Shown here: positions 4,985 to 24,419 of the stretch, one piece after another
Layout: every line of letters begins with the position of its first letter
How positions within the stretch are numbered: position 1 is the first letter of the stretch
NCBI RefSeq assembly: GCF_017355785.1
Contig: NZ_JAFEWE010000005.1
Span: 248,001-312,000, forward strand
Reading direction: 5' to 3'
From: Desertivirga arenae
GTDB taxonomy: Bacteria > Bacteroidota > Bacteroidia > Sphingobacteriales > Sphingobacteriaceae
DNA: 64,000 bases
The notes under the pieces: model-generated
Seen by the model: only the letters and a program-made list of their open reading frames with translations
What the model was told of the DNA's origin: nothing
Database searches by the model: none
Position numbers and translations under genes: made by a program

Positions 4985-7900
4985 ATGGAAAAAATAAAGC
5001 ATCTTATCGTATTGCTAATAACATGCTGCTTTATGCAACAAGTATTAGCTCAAAATATTACCATAGCAGGAAAAGTTACAGACAAACAAGGACTGCCTCT
5101 TCCTGGGGTATCGGTAGTAGTTAAAGGTTCCCGCACGGCAACTACTACCAGTCCAACTGGTACATTTTCCATTGCAGTACCAAAATTAGGTTCAACCCTT
5201 GTTTTTAGCTTTATCGGAATGTCAGAGCAAGAGGTGCTGGTCAATTCATCCACAGCACTTAATGTGGTGATGGGTGAAAAATCGATTACAATGAACGAAG
5301 TTGTGGTTGTAGGGTATGGTAGGCAACGCCGGGAAAGCGTAACAGGTTCAATTGCAACCGTTAACACAAAAGAACTTGTACAAAGCCCTGTTGCCGATTT
5401 AAGTAATGCGATTGCGGGACGTGTTTCGGGGGTTATTACCAAACAACCGGCAGGAGAACCAGGAGCAGACGCAGCCCAAATCTATATCCGTGGTAATTCA
5501 ACTTTCGGCAATGGAAGTATGGAACCCTTGGTAGTGGTAGACGGAATTGTCAGATCCTTTAGGGATTTCTCTCAAATGGATCCTAACGAAATTGAATCAG
5601 TAAACGTATTAAAAGATGCCTCTTCTGCGGCAATCTTCGGTGTTAAGGGTGCGAACGGTGTAATTCTTGTAACCTCAAAAAGGGGCCGTGCGGGAAAGAT
5701 GAGTGCAAGCTATTCTTTCAATTACGGTGCTTCTCAGGTTACCCGCCTGCCTAAAAATCTTGGCTCCTATGAATATGCTGTTCTGTTTAACGAAGCTAAG
5801 CTTAACGATAATCCAAACGCTACACCCGAATTTTCATTAGAGCGATTGGAAGGATTCAGAAGCGGATCTGATCGGGAACTATATCCGAATACAGACTGGA
5901 TGGATCTTGTAATGGGAGGTACTGCTCCAAGGATGCAACACAATGTTTCATTAAGCGGCGGTGCAGAGAAAGTCAAATATTTTGCTTCTCTGGGTTATCT
6001 TAATGAAGATGGCTTATACGAGTCTTTAAACTACAAACGTTATAATGTCCGTACAAATCTTGATATGCAGGTTACCGCAACTACAAAATTTGCAGTAGAC
6101 CTTGCCGGACGACTGGAAAACCGCCTTACTCCTCCATCTGGCAATATTTTCGAGCACACGATGCGGAACCCTCCTATTCTGCCTGCGAGATTTTCAGATG
6201 GACGACTGGCTAGTCCTGGTTCCTATCCAAATCCTCTGGGTTTGGTAAGTCCTGAAAGTGGCTACAACAGAACTTCCGGAAACTTTCTCTTAACGAACTT
6301 CCAGCTTACTCAAGACCTTCCCTGGGTTAAAGGCCTGTCAGTTAAAGGGGTTCTAGCGTTCGACAGAAACTTTAGTTATAATAAAGTATGGAATTCATGG
6401 GTACCCCTTTATGTTAAGAATGCCGACGGCTCCTTTGGAACTACTGCCCCAACTAAATCCTCCCTAAACAAGAATTTCGGCGAGGGTAAAGGCATAGAAT
6501 TGCAAGGTCATATTAACTACGAAAATCGCTTCGGCCAGCACGGAATTTCTGCACTCGCACTTTTCATTCAAAAAGAAAACGAGAACAGCAGCCTTTATGG
6601 TGGAAGGAATTCTTATGAAAGCTCTGCTCTTGAATTACTCAACTTTGGTCCCGCTTTAAATGAAACACTTGGAGATTTCGAAAATAAGACAGGATTAAAA
6701 AGTGCAGCATTTCGTATCAATTACGATTATGCAAACAGATACTTCCTGCAAGCAAGTTTACGTCGCGACCAATCAGAAAACTTCGCTCCTGAAAACAGAA
6801 CAGGTTACTTCCCTGCCGTTTCTGCTGGTTGGTTAGTAAGTAAAGAAGCTTTTATGAGCGGAATTAAGGCTGTCGACTACTTCAAGTTAAAAGCCTCCTA
6901 TGGTAAACTGGGAAGCGACCGGATAGGAAGCCGGTTCGGTTATTACAATAGGTATAATCTCGTAAACAACAACTACGTGTTTGGAAACACCTTGGTTAAC
7001 GGCTTAACTCCGGGAGCTATTGCTAATCCTGACCTCACCTGGGAAACTTCTACTAAGTCTGATATCGGTTTCGAATCTCGATTTGCCGGTAATCTGCTTG
7101 GTATCGACTTTACCTATTTCGCTGAAAAACGTGATGACATTTTAGCTACCCGCAGTCTGTCTGTTCCACTGTCTTTTGGAGCTGCCTTGCCCAGTGAAAA
7201 TATCGGAACGGTTAAAAATAAGGGTATTGAGGTTGCATTAAGTCACGATAACAGACTTAATAAAAATATGAGTTATTTCTTGAGGGGTAATTTCACCTTT
7301 GCAAGGAACAAAATCATTGAAGCTGCTGAAGCAGCAAATGTTCCTGAAGGTAAGAGGATCACAGGAAGGCCTAACAATGGCTATTATGGATACAAAGCCA
7401 TTGGAATTTTCAGGGATCAGGAGGATTATAATAATTCCCCGAAGCCAACAGCCTTCCTGAATTCAACAGGGCCTGGTGACATTAAATACCAGGATATTAG
7501 TGGTGCAAACGGTACTCCTGATGGCAAAATAGACGATTACGATATTACTTACCTAGGAGTTGGTCCTTTGCCTGAGATCATCTATGGTATCAATGGAGGC
7601 TTAAACTTTAAAGGTTTTGAATTTAATTTCCTTTTCCAGGGAGCTTCGAGATCGCAGCAACTTCTTACTCAAAATGCGGCATGGGCATTCTATAACAGCG
7701 GTCGTGTTACTGAAGAATGGCTTGATCGCTGGACTCCGGCAAACCCAGATGCTTCTCTTCCGCGCTTATCTCTGAATGCTAATGGCAATAATAATCTAAC
7801 CAGCAGTTTTTGGGTAAAGAATTCCAGCTACCTGCGCTTAAAGAATGTTGAGCTGGCGTACACGATAAAGAATAAATTCCTTTCCAGATACACCTCTGGA

Positions 7901-15848: not shown

Positions 15849-16574
15849 CTATCCGAAGTATTTCATGATCTTTTCCAGCTCTAGCTGGATCTCCTTCTGC
15901 ATATTTTCCCCTGCTAACAAGAAAGAACTTCTCGTTGCATTGAGAGAATCTTTTTTTGTTGTTATCTCCTGGCTGATCTGATTGATCTCGCCCTTCAACA
16001 CGTTCAACCGCTGGGTAAGTGCCCTTAATTCCTCTGCCTTCTTCTGCAGATCGAGCTCTTTTTGTTCAAGTTCAGCTTTATACTGCCGGGCATGTGCGGT
16101 TTGAAAAGCGTTAAGGTCACGCCCAATTACATTTTGATATTCATGACCGGTGGAAATGAGGCGCTCCTTACTTAAGCCTGCGTTCTTGAGGATATTAAAA
16201 GCTGTAACGTACCTAAGGTTTTCATCTGCAATATCATCAATATCTAATTTCGCTTCTATAAATTCTTTGAAATCAGGTCCAGTAAATGCAGGGTTCTCAC
16301 GGTTAGCTTTATCTAATAATGCTTCGAAATAAGCTGTATGCTCGGGAAAGGGCATAGTATCGGATTGCCGAATAATAGCTGAAGCGGCTTGCGATGTTGT
16401 AGGCGGGACACTTGCAGCTGCTGTTCCTTTCCCTGGCTCATCAATAAGGGGATGCGTGGTATCTTTATCTGAAGTCGGGGGTGGAGCCTGAAGAGGATTA
16501 TTTTTAGCTACTTGCTTGCTCTTATCTTCCTCAAACTCCACAAAGGGATTCAACAAAGCCTTTAAAAAACTCAT
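15849..16574 (-). CDS. coiled-coil protein, last gene of the vWA-PP2C-kinase operon
   Basis: A 241-residue soluble protein of no recognised family. The start MSFLKALLNPFVEFEE could form an amphipathic helix. A proline/serine/threonine-rich linker covers about 25-75, a small helical domain about 78-155 (FPEHTAYFEALLDKANRENP onward), and a strong heptad coiled coil runs from about 160 to 235. No transmembrane segment is seen. It starts 9 bases after the Ppx-like gene and must be co-transcribed with the signalling module. By build it is a scaffold, adaptor or phosphorylation target rather than an enzyme. That role is inference. Confidence 0.6.
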   Translation of the reverse strand: MSFLKALLNPFVEFEEDKSKQVAKNNPLQAPPPTSDKDTTHPLIDEPGKGTAAASVPPTTSQAASAIIRQSDTMPFPEHTAYFEALLDKANRENPAFTGPDFKEFIEAKLDIDDIADENLRYVTAFNILKNAGLSKERLISTGHEYQNVIGRDLNAFQTAHARQYKAELEQKELDLQKKAEELRALTQRLNVLKGEINQISQEITTKKDSLNATRSSFLLAGENMQKEIQLELEKIMKYFG

Positions 16575-16583
16575 GCCTGATAA

Positions 16584-17582
16584 TTACTTTTTCAAACTCA
16601 ATAAAAATCCGATGGTAAAATTAGCGTCCCAGTCGAACACAAAGGTGTCGGTTTTAGTAGCGTCGGCAATAGCCTTATAGATGTTCAAGCCCGCCTGCAT
16701 TTTTTTATCTTCTCCATTATAAGAACCCGGACTTTTTAAAACCGTGTACCTCTCCTCTCCCTTCCGGTGCTGTTTAGCAAGAGTAAAAGGAACTCCACCA
16801 ATTATAAAACCTACATTTCGTTTATCTGAAGGTACTTTGGCAACAGCCTCCTTTACCTGATTGTAAACATCCTGGTCCGAAAGATTTTGCTGGAAATATT
16901 TAGCACCAGGAAGTTCCTGGCTTTTAAGAGCACCATTCTCTTCCCAGGATATCTTAGTGTTTCCTGAACCAATATCAACCATGAAAGAATTATCAATAAA
17001 GGCTGGGGGCACGGTTGCCTGAAGAGCAAACTTAGCTTCCTGATCCGGAGTCACATTATTGACCACAAAACCCATCTTCTTTAGTTCATTACTGATTGTT
17101 TTTGTCTTAGCTTCCTTCTGTGCACCAGAAGAAATAACGAAATGAACATTGTTTTTAGCTACCCCCTTATCGAACATTCCAGCAATGTACTTCTTCAAAC
17201 CTCCGCGAATGTCTTCTGTCGTTGCCAGTCCTTCATAAGCCAGAGACTCACCAAAATCTTTTGACACAATCTCCCAACGCTTCTCCTTGTCAAGATTAAT
17301 AACAAAGGAGTTAAACCCTGTTGCCCCTAATTCAACAACTCCGTTTAGAGTGCCGTTCTGCGGCTTTTCAGGTGTATAACTAAATTCTCTGGCTTCATCA
17401 GAACTTGTTTTATTATTATCCTGCGCCTGACTTTGATTTCCGGAAGCCGAACTGTCCCAACTGTTCGTTGCCCCATCCGAGGTCTCCGTCTTATTACTAC
17501 CTCCTGAATTCTTGAAGGCGAAATAACCCAAGACGGCTATTATTGCGATGATGATAAATATTCCTGCTGGTTTTAATTTCAT
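16584..17582 (-). CDS. membrane-anchored Ppx/GppA-like ASKHA-fold protein
   Basis: A 332-residue protein with one N-terminal transmembrane helix (about 8-23), a low-complexity Ser/Asn/Asp linker (25-65) and a domain from about 75 to 332. Two motifs resemble the phosphate-binding loops of the actin/hexokinase (ASKHA) fold as used in exopolyphosphatase/guanosine pentaphosphatase: GVVELGATGFNSFVIN (81-96) and FMVDIGSGNTKISW (200-213). Between them VTPDQEAKFAL (178-188) recalls the EEA segment of Ppx. The positive N-terminus (MKLK) predicts N-in/C-out, putting the domain in the periplasm. It lies 18 bases after the kinase gene in the same operon. Nucleotide, polyphosphate or peptide binding is possible. 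Confidence 0.6.
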   Translation of the reverse strand: MKLKPAGIFIIIAIIAVLGYFAFKNSGGSNKTETSDGATNSWDSSASGNQSQAQDNNKTSSDEAREFSYTPEKPQNGTLNGVVELGATGFNSFVINLDKEKRWEIVSKDFGESLAYEGLATTEDIRGGLKKYIAGMFDKGVAKNNVHFVISSGAQKEAKTKTISNELKKMGFVVNNVTPDQEAKFALQATVPPAFIDNSFMVDIGSGNTKISWEENGALKSQELPGAKYFQQNLSDQDVYNQVKEAVAKVPSDKRNVGFIIGGVPFTLAKQHRKGEERYTVLKSPGSYNGEDKKMQAGLNIYKAIADATKTDTFVFDWDANFTIGFLLSLKK

Positions 17583-17600
17583 TGTCGTAATTTTTAATTT

Positions 17601-19115
17601 CTACTTATTAGCCATTGTTATCACTACAACCCTACCGCCATCTTCGTTTGATAACAAAAGTTTTTTTCCATCTGTTATTTCCACCATTGATCCTACCGGG
17701 ATCACCTTATCTTCCGTCAGATCCTTAAGTGAACTCAGCTTCTGATTCACCAGAACCCATTTATTATTAAACCAGGTAAAGTAACCTACTGGTACTTTTT
17801 GTTCTGCCGTAAGACGTTCATTTCTCACAATGTTTCTATTCACATGCCATTGGAACAGATATTGGTTATGGTAAACCATTAATCTATGGTTCTCAGGCTT
17901 CCACACGGTTAGTTTAAACTGATAGTAAAGGTCGAGAACAGGCAATGTTCCTTTTATAGGAGTTCCGCAAAAAGGACATTTCGGCGAAGTGGAATTATCA
18001 AAAACGAACCACTTCTGGTCACAGGCTGGATTGGCACAGGGCTGCATCAAATCGGTGGTCTTTAATAGTGCCTGCTCCCACATGTCGGCATTGGGGCGTT
18101 GTTGTGGATTATGTAGGCCCACTATAAACGCCTGATCAAATAAAGCCTTCAGGTAAGGCCCAGTTATAGTATAAGGCAGCTTTGAAATATCAGCCCAAGG
18201 TAGAGCTGATTTGGGTTGTTGATCCAGTTTGGGCCTGTTTGATGCATCAGTAGGGTGTTCAATAAACAATGCTTTTTCTCCCATCGATAAAAGATCATCT
18301 TCTTCAGTGTCTAAAGAATTGATCTTTCCTCCCTTTAATGGATGGCGGTAAAGCAAGTACATATAGATCATCACTGCTAAGGCATGAAGGTCAGTGAGTC
18401 GATTAGCGTGCTTTCGACTAGGGTCACGAAGCTCAAGATGTTTTGTACTCAATACTTCAGGAGCAATAAAGTCGGCTGTTCCGATCACGTCAGGTGGATA
18501 AAGGCCTGGTACCACCAATCCATCAATATCGATTATGGTCGCATCGCGGTTTACCGGGTCAATCAGTACGTTTTTATAGGATAGATCTGAGTGAGCCAAG
18601 CCTGCTGCATGCAAGCGCTTTACGCCTCTGGCAATCTTAACTGCGATTTGGAAATAACTTAGCCAGTTTCCTAATTCAGATTCGTCTAATCTTAAGGCAA
18701 ACTGCTTATTCCTGAACTTAGCCGACGCGAACCATAAGCCCTGTTTTTCTTTCCCTTTTATCCCATCACTCGTTGCATAGCCTTTGGCGAAAAAAAAGTT
18801 CTTTCTGTACGTGGGAACAATTAAACCTATCTGACTACCCACCTGTACTACATCGGTAGGCCAGGAATAGACAGTCTTGTAATACTCCCCTCCTTCCCTA
18901 TTAAAGAAGCTGTCATAATATTGCGTTACCAATTTTGTTAAACGTTCTTTCGAATTAAAATCCTGCTTGTCCCGGTAAAAGGCAATCACGTAAGATCTAT
19001 CCGGAGCGAAGTACACGTCTTTCATTCCTCCTCGCATAGGTTCGCCATTATCAATATACTGATAACTCTTACCTGAATGTATAATTGAAGAAACTGACTT
19101 AACGTTTGTCATCAA
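17601..19115 (-). CDS. TerY-associated-type protein kinase with C-terminal zinc ribbon
   Basis: A 504-residue cytoplasmic protein. The kinase domain spans about 20-350: a glycine-rich loop near MRGGMKDVYFA (27-37), the catalytic loop HSDLSYKNVL with Asp177 and Asn182 (HSD in place of HRD), the metal site IIDIDG with Asp196 (in place of DFG) and APE at 218-220. A zinc ribbon follows with Cys360, Cys365, Cys380 and Cys383 (CX4C...CX2C), then a beta-rich tail to 504. The divergent HSD/DID motifs still hold the catalytic Asp and Asn, so activity is plausible. It sits after the PP2C gene (30-base gap). Kinase, PP2C phosphatase and vWA protein together make the triad called TerY-P in comparative genomics of tellurite-resistance-type systems. 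Confidence 0.8.
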   Translation of the reverse strand: MMTNVKSVSSIIHSGKSYQYIDNGEPMRGGMKDVYFAPDRSYVIAFYRDKQDFNSKERLTKLVTQYYDSFFNREGGEYYKTVYSWPTDVVQVGSQIGLIVPTYRKNFFFAKGYATSDGIKGKEKQGLWFASAKFRNKQFALRLDESELGNWLSYFQIAVKIARGVKRLHAAGLAHSDLSYKNVLIDPVNRDATIIDIDGLVVPGLYPPDVIGTADFIAPEVLSTKHLELRDPSRKHANRLTDLHALAVMIYMYLLYRHPLKGGKINSLDTEEDDLLSMGEKALFIEHPTDASNRPKLDQQPKSALPWADISKLPYTITGPYLKALFDQAFIVGLHNPQQRPNADMWEQALLKTTDLMQPCANPACDQKWFVFDNSTSPKCPFCGTPIKGTLPVLDLYYQFKLTVWKPENHRLMVYHNQYLFQWHVNRNIVRNERLTAEQKVPVGYFTWFNNKWVLVNQKLSSLKDLTEDKVIPVGSMVEITDGKKLLLSNEDGGRVVVITMANK

Positions 19116-19145
19116 TATTCGATTTATTATTTGCCTTTAAATTGC

Positions 19146-20561
19146 TTAGAACACTATAGCCAAGGTCCTGTCATCATGATTTCCTGTACTCCAAAAATCC
19201 ATCCAGTCAGAAAATTGCATAACGATATCGTTGTTATCCGGGTTAATATCCACTTTCACTCCATCCTCATTCTTACCCTTCAAATCATCAAGGAACTCTT
19301 TCCATTTGTTAACATCCTCGAGGTTTGCTTCGACCACAAACTTTGGATCATAAACCCCATCAGACATCAGCATCAGGTAAGAAAAGTCTTGTATTTGCCG
19401 GAAACTGAAACGTGTAGCAAACTTCTCATTTTTGAAGATCTCGGGCATTGTAATAAACCGGGTACCACCACCAAATTCCCCTACATCTATCCAATTCAGC
19501 AAAGTCACCTGAGAAAGTTCTTTATCAAGAACGGCAATAGGACAATCGCCCACCCCAAAAGAGAGAAACACATAACCCGTTTCATACTTTTTAAACAGAG
19601 TAAAGATTAGGGTACAACTAAGGTCTTTAAGAGCATGACCTGCCTTAGAAGCAAAATCCTCCAGCTTTTTATGGACATTTAAAGCTGCCTTACCAAGAGT
19701 GTTATATACAAAAAGCTTTAGTTTACCCTGACTGTCGGGTGCAGTCTTCTCGTTGTGATCCCTTAGTATCTGATCGAATTCGAGCAAGCTTTTAACGGAA
19801 TCTTCCTGTTCAAAAAAATCAACAACAGAACGGCATGCGATGTCAGAACCTTTTCTGGAAAATTTGGCACTACCTGCTCCATCACTTACAACCACAATAC
19901 TCCAACCATTTTGCAGATCTTTATAGGCGAAATCATCCTCGCGAAAAGAACCAACATTGGCATGAGATCGACCACGTTTTGACGAAGCAAGGAGGTATTT
20001 ATCTCCTAAAGGTTCAAATACCGTAATATTGTCTTCCTTCCAGTAAGGATCTTCCCTATCGCTATCCAGGTTCTTCCATAAACTCCTTGGATCAGGGTTA
20101 ATAGTTAGAGGGATTTCCTTTTCATTAAAAGGGTCTTCCTCTGCCTGTCCTTTAAGTTTATATAGGAACTTAAGTTTTATATCTCCACTTGAAGATGGGT
20201 TTCCCGTAATTTGGGCTTGCTTTTCATCAAAGCTTAATCCAGTTTCCTCCAGTCCTTCTAACCTCCATTGCTCCATATCAGTCCAACCTAATTTCTCAAA
20301 ATCGAGCTTAGCTTCATAAGATTTACCTACACTGGCATTTAGAATTCTTACCGATTGCCCCTTTATATCGGCAACCCTATCTTGTATTTTCCACTCAGCC
20401 ATAAGATGGTTCTCGGTTTGATTAATGGTGTTAACCGCCGCAACGACTTTTTCTTCCTTGATAAAACTTTCAAACAGGCCCTTCCGGTTAGAAGGAACCT
20501 GAATATTGTTTTTCCGGAATAGTTCTGTCAGCTGTTCTTTCACACTTCCTGGTTCCGGCAT
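19146..20561 (-). CDS. PP2C-family protein phosphatase with N-terminal Ig-like region
   Basis: A 471-residue protein. Residues 1-60 are helical, and about 70-140 look like a putative Ig/cadherin-like domain (LNASVGKSYEAKLDF...). The PP2C domain covers about 180-471: a GRSHANVGSFREDDF motif (197-211), metal-binding SDGAGS (226-231), a second MSDGVYD motif and a final DDRT (463-466) that supplies the last metal Asp. All key acidic residues are present, so it should be an active Mg/Mn-dependent Ser/Thr phosphatase. It follows the vWA gene by 14 bases and presumably reverses the partner kinase. No signal peptide or membrane helix is seen. Confidence 0.85.
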   Translation of the reverse strand: MPEPGSVKEQLTELFRKNNIQVPSNRKGLFESFIKEEKVVAAVNTINQTENHLMAEWKIQDRVADIKGQSVRILNASVGKSYEAKLDFEKLGWTDMEQWRLEGLEETGLSFDEKQAQITGNPSSSGDIKLKFLYKLKGQAEEDPFNEKEIPLTINPDPRSLWKNLDSDREDPYWKEDNITVFEPLGDKYLLASSKRGRSHANVGSFREDDFAYKDLQNGWSIVVVSDGAGSAKFSRKGSDIACRSVVDFFEQEDSVKSLLEFDQILRDHNEKTAPDSQGKLKLFVYNTLGKAALNVHKKLEDFASKAGHALKDLSCTLIFTLFKKYETGYVFLSFGVGDCPIAVLDKELSQVTLLNWIDVGEFGGGTRFITMPEIFKNEKFATRFSFRQIQDFSYLMLMSDGVYDPKFVVEANLEDVNKWKEFLDDLKGKNEDGVKVDINPDNNDIVMQFSDWMDFWSTGNHDDRTLAIVF

Positions 20562-20575
20562 ATCTGCAAAGGATT

Positions 20576-21214
20576 TTAAGTAACAATGTTTAACTCGGAT
20601 GGAGGCGGAGGAAGCTCTCCAATGCCTGTTACTTCTTTTCCGGCATCTTCCACCTTGGTTGAGGTAACGCCGATGGAAGCAGATACCCAGGAGAAGAACT
20701 TAGAGATGCTCTGGCTATCAGCAGTGTCGAGACTAACTACATTCTCTGTAATTTGCTTTAATAAGTTTGAGTCAGCACCGCTACCGGCAGCACATGCAAC
20801 GGTATAAGCAGTTTTCCGTTTTTTGAACTCTTCTAAGCCCGATTGCCACTCGTCGGTAGGAATTCCATCTGTCATAATGAAAACCAATGGCTTCCAGTCG
20901 CCCTTCTGCTCCTGTGTTGTTTTCGCAACCTCATTATCTATGCAAGTTGCTACCAACTTCAAAGCCTCTCCTAAACTGGTGGTACCAGTGGCTTTAATAT
21001 CTACCATTTGGAAAGAAGCCAGATCAGTTAGAGGAACAAGCTGGCGGGCTGTACTATCAAAAGTGATGATGCTGATAAAGGCAGTTTCAATAGCCTGCGG
21101 ATTTTGTCGCAGGGAACTGATCATCACCTGAACTCCATTTTTAACCGCTTCAATCGGTTCGCCAGTCATCGAACCCGATGTGTCTAATAGTAAATAAACC
21201 GGTAGTCTTCTCAT
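20576..21214 (-). CDS. terY: TerY-like von Willebrand factor A domain protein
   Basis: A 212-residue cytoplasmic vWA protein. The complete metal-ion-dependent adhesion site is visible: DTSGS (11-15), the Thr in KATGTTSLG and the Asp in MTDGIPTDEW. The proline-rich tail GELPPPPSELNIV is the ending usual for TerY-type proteins. It is the first gene of a five-gene operon with PP2C phosphatase, kinase, Ppx-like protein and coiled-coil protein, all spaced 9-30 bases. It likely recruits or presents a target to the kinase/phosphatase pair through Mg-dependent binding. No terC, terD or other tellurite-resistance genes are in the window, so the link to metal stress is by family only. Confidence 0.82.
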   Translation of the reverse strand: MRRLPVYLLLDTSGSMTGEPIEAVKNGVQVMISSLRQNPQAIETAFISIITFDSTARQLVPLTDLASFQMVDIKATGTTSLGEALKLVATCIDNEVAKTTQEQKGDWKPLVFIMTDGIPTDEWQSGLEEFKKRKTAYTVACAAGSGADSNLLKQITENVVSLDTADSQSISKFFSWVSASIGVTSTKVEDAGKEVTGIGELPPPPSELNIVT

Positions 21215-22643: not shown

Positions 22644-23005
22644 TTAATCAAGCCTAAGACTATCTTTATTATCGTAGTGATAATTCCATTTTTTCATATA
22701 CTCGTCTGCAGGCAGAAAAGAATCACGCGCCTGCTGCAGTCTCCTTTGTAACACTTTGTCTAAGTTCTTTTGCAGTGAAGCAAACTCTGATTTACTTACC
22801 AGATTATTCAACTGGTAAGGATCTTTAAGGTTGTCATATAGCAGCCATGGACCTTTCAAATCCTTCACATAAGTGTAGCGGGCGGTTCGAATGGCACGAT
22901 ATTCCTTTCCTCCACTCAAAAAATTGTTCTCATGAAAAGGCAAGTAATACCTCCTATGATCGCAATGGCAGTCAAAGTCATCCAGGTAGCTTTTCTAACT
23001 TGCAT
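22644..23005 (-). pseudogene. sulfatase relic: signal peptide and C-terminus joined out of frame
   Basis: An ATG at 23005..23003, one base after the stop of the upstream sulfatase, opens a signal-peptide-like start (MQVRKATWMTLTAIAIIGG, then ITCLFMRTIF and a stop; 29 codons). In another frame the same DNA reads LPFHENNFLSGG and continues for about 100 codons with EYRAIRTARYTYVKD and GPWLLYDNLKDPYQLNNLV, the standard C-terminal end of a type I sulfatase. The whole catalytic core with its CxPxR motif is missing. A large internal deletion with frame change explains this better than a true 99-residue gene starting at the internal ATG 22943, although that short protein could still be made. Confidence 0.75.
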
Positions 23006-23006
23006 A

Positions 23007-24419
23007 CTAAAGGGCTTTTAACTTCAAATCCTTATATTTTCTCCGCATTGTTTCCAACTGTCCTTTGAAGCGCTTGTCACCAGCAAGATTTTTGGTTTCA
23101 TGAGGATCATTCTTCACATCATAAAGTTCTTCGTAGTTATGCTCCGTAAATAACATATACTTCCACCTACCTCCTGCTACACCTTCTACTTTTGGGATCT
23201 TAGGACTACCCTGAAACGTATGCTCATAAAAAAATTCCCGCTTCGACCTGTCCTCTTTCAGCAAATCATTTCCCTGCATGCCTTCAGAAACAGAAAGACC
23301 GGCTGCTCCAAGGATAGTTGGAGCGATATCAATATTAAGAGCTACCTGCTCTGAGACCTTTCCTTTTGATAAATTCTCCAGTGGATTGTAAATAATCAGA
23401 GGAACCCTTATTGATTCTTCATGACCATACCATTTACCTTCCAGTCCGTGCTCACCTAAATAAAAGCCGTTATCCCCCATGAAAATGACGATCGTATTAT
23501 CAGCTATACCTAATTCTTTGAGCTTCGAAACAAGCTTTCCCACAGCTTCGTCAACTCCGGTGATCAATCTGTAGTAGTTTTTCACCGACTCCTGATATAG
23601 CTCGGGACTGGAAAAAAACGTCCTCCAGCGAACTCTGGCAATATTTTCTTCTGTTTTAAAGAAATCCGGAAAGGATTCCCAATATCTCGGATCTGCAGTT
23701 TGCGGAACGGGAACCTTATTATCATTATATAAGTTCTTAAACCTATCCTGCACTATAAACTTTGGAGGATTGCCATCAAGTTCATGCGGCGCCTTGAAAC
23801 CAATAGAGAGACAAAAAGGGCCCTGCTTACCAAACTGATCCAGGAACTTTTGAATATCGCTGCTTACACTATCTGTGTTGTGAACAATTTCTCCGCTCAG
23901 GTTCTTTAGCTCATAGTCAGGTTGCACCTTTGGTGTACATGACCAATAATCAAATTCTTCAATAGGAGGCTTCAATCCCACACCATACTTGCCAATGAAG
24001 CCCGTTTTATAACCCGCCTTTTTTAGCAGGAATGGATAGGTATTTCGAACAGCTTCCTGAGAAAAGTCTGTTGTAAAATTGTTTATTTTATGTCTCGAGA
24101 CATATTGACCACTTAAAATACTGGCTCTGCTTGTGCAGCAAATAGCGGTAGTTACGTAGGCGTTTCCGAACCTGGTACCTGCATTAGCCAAACGATCAAG
24201 GTTTGGCGTTTGAATAATTGAATTTCCTGCAACCCCTAGGGCATCCCACCGATGATCATCGGTGAGAATAAAGATTATGTTGGGCTTTGCCGCCTTTGTT
24301 TGAGCGATCGCAGTAAAACCTGACAAAGCAAGGAGCAGATGTGCTCCTTGCCTCACTAACCAATGATTTATGTTTCCAAGCGTATAGAAGGAACCTTTAT
24401 TATTTTTTTGCATTAGCAC
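23007..24419 (-). CDS. type I sulfatase with CCTSR site (S1)
   Basis: A 470-residue exported sulfatase. The signal region covers 1-40 (ending TAIAQ), metal-binding Asps lie in ILTDDH (51-56), and the formylglycine motif is Cys94-C-T-S-R98, with Thr in place of the usual Pro. GKYGVG, FKAPHE and MGDNGFYLGEHG supply later active-site residues, and the C-terminal subdomain holds YEELYDVKNDPHETKNLAG. It hydrolyses a sulfate ester on a sugar; the target position is unknown. CCTSR is seen in some active S1 sulfatases, so it is probably functional after Cys-to-formylglycine conversion. The start overlaps the upstream sulfatase end by 20 bases, which indicates translational coupling. A second ATG two codons on is equally possible. 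Confidence 0.9.
   Translation of the reverse strand: MLMQKNNKGSFYTLGNINHWLVRQGAHLLLALSGFTAIAQTKAAKPNIIFILTDDHRWDALGVAGNSIIQTPNLDRLANAGTRFGNAYVTTAICCTSRASILSGQYVSRHKINNFTTDFSQEAVRNTYPFLLKKAGYKTGFIGKYGVGLKPPIEEFDYWSCTPKVQPDYELKNLSGEIVHNTDSVSSDIQKFLDQFGKQGPFCLSIGFKAPHELDGNPPKFIVQDRFKNLYNDNKVPVPQTADPRYWESFPDFFKTEENIARVRWRTFFSSPELYQESVKNYYRLITGVDEAVGKLVSKLKELGIADNTIVIFMGDNGFYLGEHGLEGKWYGHEESIRVPLIIYNPLENLSKGKVSEQVALNIDIAPTILGAAGLSVSEGMQGNDLLKEDRSKREFFYEHTFQGSPKIPKVEGVAGGRWKYMLFTEHNYEELYDVKNDPHETKNLAGDKRFKGQLETMRRKYKDLKLKAL

Follow-up and report, generated by a model that had tools for sequence, protein, structure and literature searches.

The question raised by this locus is whether a phospho-switch that usually lies in large stress operons has been joined to a protein of the polyphosphatase fold on the other side of the inner membrane. 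The window, that is, the whole 64,000-nucleotide stretch analysed, is from Desertivirga arenae (contig NZ_JAFEWE010000005.1, positions 248,001 to 312,000); coordinates below are those of the window. On its minus strand, five co-directional open reading frames (ORFs) are arranged head to tail (21214-15849). They encode, in this order, a von Willebrand factor A (vWA) protein, a PP2C-family phosphatase, a Ser/Thr-type protein kinase, a membrane-anchored Ppx/GppA-fold protein (PPX) and a coiled-coil protein (CC). The intergenic gaps of 14, 30, 18 and 9 bases confirm the close spacing described in an initial annotation, which had also proposed the last two genes as partners of the first three. The five genes are read here, tentatively and at somewhat less than an even chance, as one inner-membrane unit in which a TerY-P phospho-switch is joined to an exported-Ppx module.

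Judged by sequence, the first three genes are a TerY-P triad with conserved active-site motifs, as the initial annotation had it. The vWA protein (212 amino acids, 20576-21214; Pfam VWA, 3.3e-15) is of the TerY type without a TerY_C match. Its metal ion-dependent adhesion site (MIDAS) residues D11, S13, T79 and D116 are present in all 22 aligned rows and S15 in 21. In the phosphatase (471 amino acids, 19146-20561; Pfam PP2C_2, 3.3e-31), residues D209, D227, G228, D339, D401 and D464 are invariant across 26 aligned rows. The kinase (504 amino acids, 17601-19115; Pfam Pkinase, 1.6e-10) starts with TTG, followed directly by an ATG codon, and shares 59-78% identity with the other kinases of the phylum and order samples described below. 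Its residues H175, D177, N182, D196 and E220 are kept in 28/28 aligned rows, as are the cysteines 360, 365, 380 and 383 of a Cys4 zinc-ribbon-like motif (residues 360-383, 17967-18038), beyond which a further C-terminal region extends. Within residues 29-48, all 28 kinases have an aromatic residue at the position aligned to the lysine that usually binds ATP (VAIK), allowing for a possible one-residue alignment shift; this residue is followed by Arg in 22 and Lys in six of them. K32 in the glycine-rich loop is an invariant lysine across the same set. Together, the aromatic residue and the glycine-loop lysine recall, as we take it, the WNK kinases. The triad of vWA, PP2C and kinase was reportedly described from Ter operons by Anantharaman et al. 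2012; to our knowledge, it has no settled biochemical job.

The same five genes occur in the same order in five further genomes. The six loci (window, G054, the metagenome-assembled genome (MAG) ES-bin-54 and three Segetibacter loci) represent four contexts, the Segetibacter loci sharing flanks with each other. Across these contexts, only the five genes are shared among ORFs of at least 100 residues, besides two weak matches of 34% and 29% identity. The set is therefore considered more than a chance arrangement, as the order recurs in five other genomes and the four contexts share little else.

Elsewhere, the triad usually belongs to Ter operons, and the window version is uncoupled from TerD. 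The kinase was detected in 11 of 395 genomes of the phylum and in 14 of 201 genomes of the order; both counts include the window genome, and the order count also includes G054. All 22 other kinase loci were fetched. TerD is found at 21 of them, a second vWA type at 21 and a TerY_C-type vWA protein at 20, and the lone locus without TerD is on a 6-kb contig. These labels were assigned by similarity to the copies at one locus (L082), where TerD matches PF02342 at 2.3e-71 and the long vWA protein matches TerY_C at 1.1e-49; at three of the 22, TerD is confirmed by PF02342 directly. At the five-gene loci, by contrast, TerD lies beside the triad in none of six, and no TerC, TelA or second vWA was found beside the window triad. 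The absence of TerC and TerD noted initially is thus correct locally, and the window genome encodes TerD on another contig (C12, 772000-791500) in the order TerC, a 320-residue protein, TelA, TerD, TerD. By eye, this locus also contains phosphoribosyltransferase-like and haloacid dehalogenase-like genes and no vWA, PP2C or kinase gene; the window genome has a single match to the triad kinase. Searched with PF02342 across whole genomes, TerD is located away from the triad in two of the six (window genome and G054) and was not found in the other four, of which three are metagenome assemblies and one is the isolate Segetibacter aerophilus. This agrees with the stand-alone system suggested earlier. 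TerY_C (PF15616) was found in one of the six genomes (G054, distant from the triad), and the window genome gave no match.

The fourth gene (16584-17582) encodes the 332-residue PPX. At curated Pfam cut-offs, neither PPX nor CC of the window is assigned to a family. The match of PPX to PF02541 (Ppx-GppA) is below threshold (E 0.11; 12.4 bits vs a gathering score of 27), and a sequence search of the PDB gave weak matches only. Among its relatives, two lipoprotein-type proteins reach 29.3 and 16.3 bits and a Sec-signal protein 38.5 bits. An AlphaFold2 model built from 16 sequences (mean predicted local distance difference test (pLDDT) 75.6, predicted template modelling score (pTM) 0.68; pLDDT below 50 at residues 1-4, 25-63 and 115-119) assigns PPX to the Ppx/GppA fold. 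The Aquifex Ppx structure 1t6c is matched with a Foldseek E of 3.2e-14 and a VIA-align Z of 21.9 (3.1 Å over 251 residues), and ecto-NTPDases follow the Ppx/GppA enzymes at Z 18.4. The model bears out the earlier proposal of a Ppx/GppA-like fold of the acetate and sugar kinase/Hsc70/actin (ASKHA) class. The Ppx/GppA-fold domain comprises residues 74-332 (16587-17363) and is predicted to be extracytoplasmic. It is preceded by a single transmembrane (TM) helix that follows a six-residue N-terminus and spans residues 7-23 by hydropathy (17514-17564) and 5-24 in the model.

The active site of PPX differs from that of the known enzymes at one position. A profile alignment places TPDQEA of PPX on TPEQEG of Aquifex Ppx and DIGSGNTK on DQGGGSTE; the glutamates of the Ppx motifs (TPEQEG, GGGSTE) are presumably catalytic. 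E182 (17037-17039) aligns with the second Glu of TPEQEG, which we take to be the catalytic position, Aquifex E119. In 48 aligned PPX rows, position 182 is always Glu and position 203 always Asp. K210 (16953-16955) lies where Aquifex Ppx has the Glu of GGGSTE; this position is Lys in 45/45 exported-type rows and Glu in 3/3 cytosolic rows, the cytosolic set consisting of these three only. Not all of these rows are independent: six (L068 and five distant exported-type proteins) were selected by a motif that contains position 210. The 48 rows omit a truncated protein (L053), a near copy (L063), a duplicate of another row (L100, which repeats the gene of L064) and, except for the window and G054 (row L099), the short loci of one search. 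Several of these short loci repeat genes of the 30-locus set described below; the two PPX searches overlap in genomes. A less biased check of the split is provided by the 30 loci of a further search (A3; L106-L135), which comprise the hits with loci, weaker hits without loci being outside the count. By eye, an N-terminal signal or TM segment goes with Lys (NTK, STK or TTK) in 24, and the absence of both goes with Glu in six. Fifteen of these loci repeat genes already in the set (L119 being counted as the same gene as L066); the 15 new genes comprise ten exported-type proteins with Lys and five with Glu. Two more Ppx genes of the window genome score above the PF02541 cut-off, have Glu at the equivalent of position 210 and show no visible signal. 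The P1 loop is non-canonical (VVELGATGFNSF) in the TM and lipoprotein clade. Glu-to-Ala mutants are named in the PDB titles of three Ppx enzymes among the fold matches.

Most likely, to judge from the N-termini, the Ppx-fold domain is extracytoplasmic or periplasmic. By eye, four relatives with 42-48% identity have lipoprotein-type signals ending in FFSC or CFSC, and more distant relatives have Sec-type signals, ending for example in SFAQ, PAYAQ or SFSQ. In the TM-anchored members, only a few residues precede the helix, and a long polar linker follows it. The signals of the relatives and the six residues before the helix of the window protein argue for a domain outside the inner membrane. Of the 36 TM rows, 33, including that of the window, have a higher net charge ahead of the helix than behind it. 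In one genus, two genomes (L097 and L098) each encode two exported Ppx-fold copies with lipoprotein-type signals, several kilobases apart (5914-6870 and 11644-12552 in L097). Three Sec-signal relatives (L062, L063, L067) have an extra N-terminal region, for which sub-threshold tetratricopeptide repeat matches were obtained in L062.

The fifth gene (15849-16574), characterized by ORF, profile comparison and alignment, encodes the 241-residue CC. It consists of a short N-terminal segment (MSFLKALLNPFVEF), a low-complexity linker, a small conserved domain (about residues 95-160, 16095-16292; P.F.G.D..EF...) and a C-terminal coiled coil; no signal or TM segment was seen by eye in the window protein. 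Profile comparison links the distant CC versions (probability 96%, E 3e-9), a score to which coiled-coil bias may contribute, and the alignment shows the small domain in common. A scan of genome contigs yielded 30 relatives of PPX, with stretches of up to 8 kb on each side and some contigs short. A CC relative is present at 26 of these loci and a third gene, X, at 21; neither is present at four. X encodes a coiled-coil protein of about 369 residues with two TM segments, and the module CC-X-PPX is found in Pedobacter, Sphingobacterium and Chitinophaga. At the 21 loci (within L029-L053), X is located between CC and PPX and is highly conserved; it has long helices and two hydrophobic segments. 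Neither Pfam nor NCBIfam assigned the X types or the CC relative convincingly to a family. A relationship of X to PspA/ESCRT-III was considered: the AlphaFold2 model is weak (pLDDT 62.4), and all Foldseek matches, to long helices and including Vipp1 and ESCRT-III, have E values above 0.001. The X type of Mucilaginibacter galii (X28) and that of Pedobacter are tentatively related (hhalign probability 69%, E 4.4e-5).

Phylogenies of both halves suggest how the set arose. In the kinase tree (28 rows), the six five-gene kinases share one clade (100/98). In the PPX tree (48 rows), the six five-gene proteins group together (84/91, branch not starred) and, joined by M. galii, a CC-X-PPX locus, make up a starred group (100/100). 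The grouping of the five-gene rows in both trees makes a single fusion probable: the triad would have come in, X would have been lost and the order would have become triad-PPX-CC. The distribution of kinase and PPX is patchy across the genome samples: the order sample contains four genomes with both the kinase and a strong PPX match (G054, G164, G167 and G000, the last being the window genome), and the two genes are far apart in two of them.

If the five genes are one unit, the triad would have left its Ter operon, probably once, and then joined the exported-Ppx module. On the inside, kinase and PP2C would control how far a partner is phosphorylated, the metal-binding vWA protein serving as adaptor; CC, or a complex that CC builds on the inner membrane face, is the likeliest candidate for this partner. 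On the outside, the anchored Ppx-fold domain may bind, and perhaps slowly hydrolyse, a phosphate-rich ligand (polyphosphate or nucleotides) and would so report or condition the envelope state. The analysis shows the gene set and its order, the conservation in four contexts, the folds and motifs, the clades and the signal-type N-termini of the relatives; which way the window PPX is oriented, what the kinase acts on, the ligand and any coupling across the membrane are the inferred parts of this model.

Several observations weigh against it. The triad accompanies only four of the 30 PPX relatives. It was therefore rejected as a general partner of PPX and CC, and the partnership across Bacteroidota expected by the initial annotation did not hold up in the genome-neighbourhood check, with 26 of 30 PPX loci lacking the triad in the stretches covered (up to 8 kb per side, on some short contigs). 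In the 395 phylum genomes, likewise, the PPX profile matches 15 genomes, eight of them strongly, and kinase and Ppx-like gene lie together in the window genome only. None of the six five-gene genomes yielded X, in a search whose recovery of the M. galii protein, itself one row of the query, serves as a positive control only. In L025, a Segetibacter MAG, an opposite-strand ORF separates kinase and PPX, which are 1,860 bases apart; this ORF (6190-7737) encodes 515 amino acids. Lysine and arginine alone, counted in the 36 TM rows, are more frequent on the N-terminal side of the helix in 14, equal in 14 and less frequent in eight, and the five-gene PPX rows are all equal or poorer on that side. 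These counts are unclear, so the orientation of the window PPX is drawn mainly from its relatives. PPX has only six residues inside, little to signal with, and an action of the kinase on any of the other four proteins is conjectural.

Since hardly any of PPX is cytoplasmic and X, the likely bridge, is missing, a looser reading is kept as a possible, if clearly less probable, explanation: two modules on one transcript, in which the triad would act in trans for a Ter-type stress response, with PPX-CC as a separate envelope pair. The window genome has a TerD-TerD-TelA-TerC locus without a triad and a single match to the triad kinase, which is consistent with this, as is the tight spacing of PPX and CC (5-11 bases in 6/6 five-gene loci) against a kinase-PPX gap that ranges from 18 to 1,860 bases. 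However, TerD was not found in four of the six five-gene genomes (three of them metagenome assemblies), and the five-gene order is kept across four contexts. PPX could also be an active periplasmic exopolyphosphatase or apyrase whose production is merely controlled by the triad. Its likeness to the Ppx and ecto-NTPDase folds and the invariant Glu182 and Asp203 would suit an enzyme, but Lys replaces the second Glu of the Ppx motif in every exported-type row and the P1 loop is non-canonical in the TM and lipoprotein clade, which makes this explanation unlikely.

The initial annotation had seen in PPX a cytoplasmic-facing ASKHA ATPase or ppGpp sensor as substrate of the kinase. The fold was correct, the genes are adjacent, and basic residues follow the TM helix in five-gene members. 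Nevertheless, the lipoprotein- and Sec-type signals of the relatives place the same domain outside, and the signal-anchor-like, six-residue N-terminus and the charge difference across the helix point the same way; the proposal is probably wrong and is given a low probability. Lowest of all stands a phage-defence cassette. Passages of PMC3710099 and PMC4978471 tie TerY/TerD systems to anti-phage or suicide responses, and the distribution is patchy, yet none of the five genes belongs, by Pfam, to a nuclease, helicase or toxin family. PADLOC gave kinase-domain matches (best 1.6e-6) and weak coiled-coil matches and none for vWA, PP2C or PPX.

Compared with known systems, the window triad resembles that of Ter operons in that all three proteins have conserved motifs and the kinase has the Cys4 motif. 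It differs in that TerD, TerC, a second vWA protein and a TerY_C-type vWA protein do not adjoin it and in being joined to PPX-CC. PPX shares the fold (over residues 76-332) and the Glu and Asp positions with the Ppx/GppA exopolyphosphatases of Aquifex (1t6c) and H. pylori (6pc0), but is only 11-18% identical to them, has a TM anchor or signal, carries GNTK in place of GGGSTE and remains sub-threshold to PF02541. Ecto-NTPDases (GDA1/CD39, e.g. Legionella NTPDase1) are extracytoplasmic and belong to the same fold class; their match is weaker than that of Ppx, and Pfam gave no GDA1/CD39 match for PPX at E up to 1. The CC-X-PPX module contains a homologous PPX and, by profile, a homologous CC, but has the two-TM coiled-coil protein as third gene, a different order and no triad. 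A theme of kinase, PP2C and stand-alone vWA protein in a membrane-proximal setting is also described for actinobacterial GAP1-N2 systems (PMC7159879). Their partners are GTPases and GAP1 proteins, the section on them names no Ppx-fold protein, and they are limited to actinobacteria. A TerY-P cluster of H. pylori is described in passages of PMC4978471. A literature search covering titles, abstract openings and passages of PMC4978471, PMC7159879 and PMC3710099, with the defining Ter survey outside it, returned nothing on exported Ppx proteins, a link between triad and Ppx or a TerD-free triad. The triad itself is thus known; both its separation from TerD and its joining to an exported Ppx-fold protein are apparently new, and the function is what we infer.

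On the same strand, the five genes are flanked by a GH43-like gene downstream and a gene for an enolase-superfamily enzyme upstream (Pfam). A short ORF at 22644-22943 resembles, by eye, the C-terminal end of a sulfatase and lies beside a sulfatase-like gene (23007-24419); it is possibly a gene remnant.

The triad is reduced here to one vWA protein, one PP2C and one kinase with two partners, in several genomes without a detected TerD, so that its substrate can be sought among few proteins. The Ppx-fold domain appears to be exported in Bacteroidota with a consistent change in the active site, which raises the question of the role of a polyphosphatase fold in the periplasm. A bolder and rather doubtful proposal is that this exported Lys-for-Glu family comprises extracytoplasmic receptors of phosphate ligands, one lineage of which would have been wired to a kinase-PP2C-vWA switch, a form of trans-envelope phospho-signalling outside the two-component and PASTA-kinase kinds. 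As a compact five-gene system, the locus could link signals across the cell envelope.

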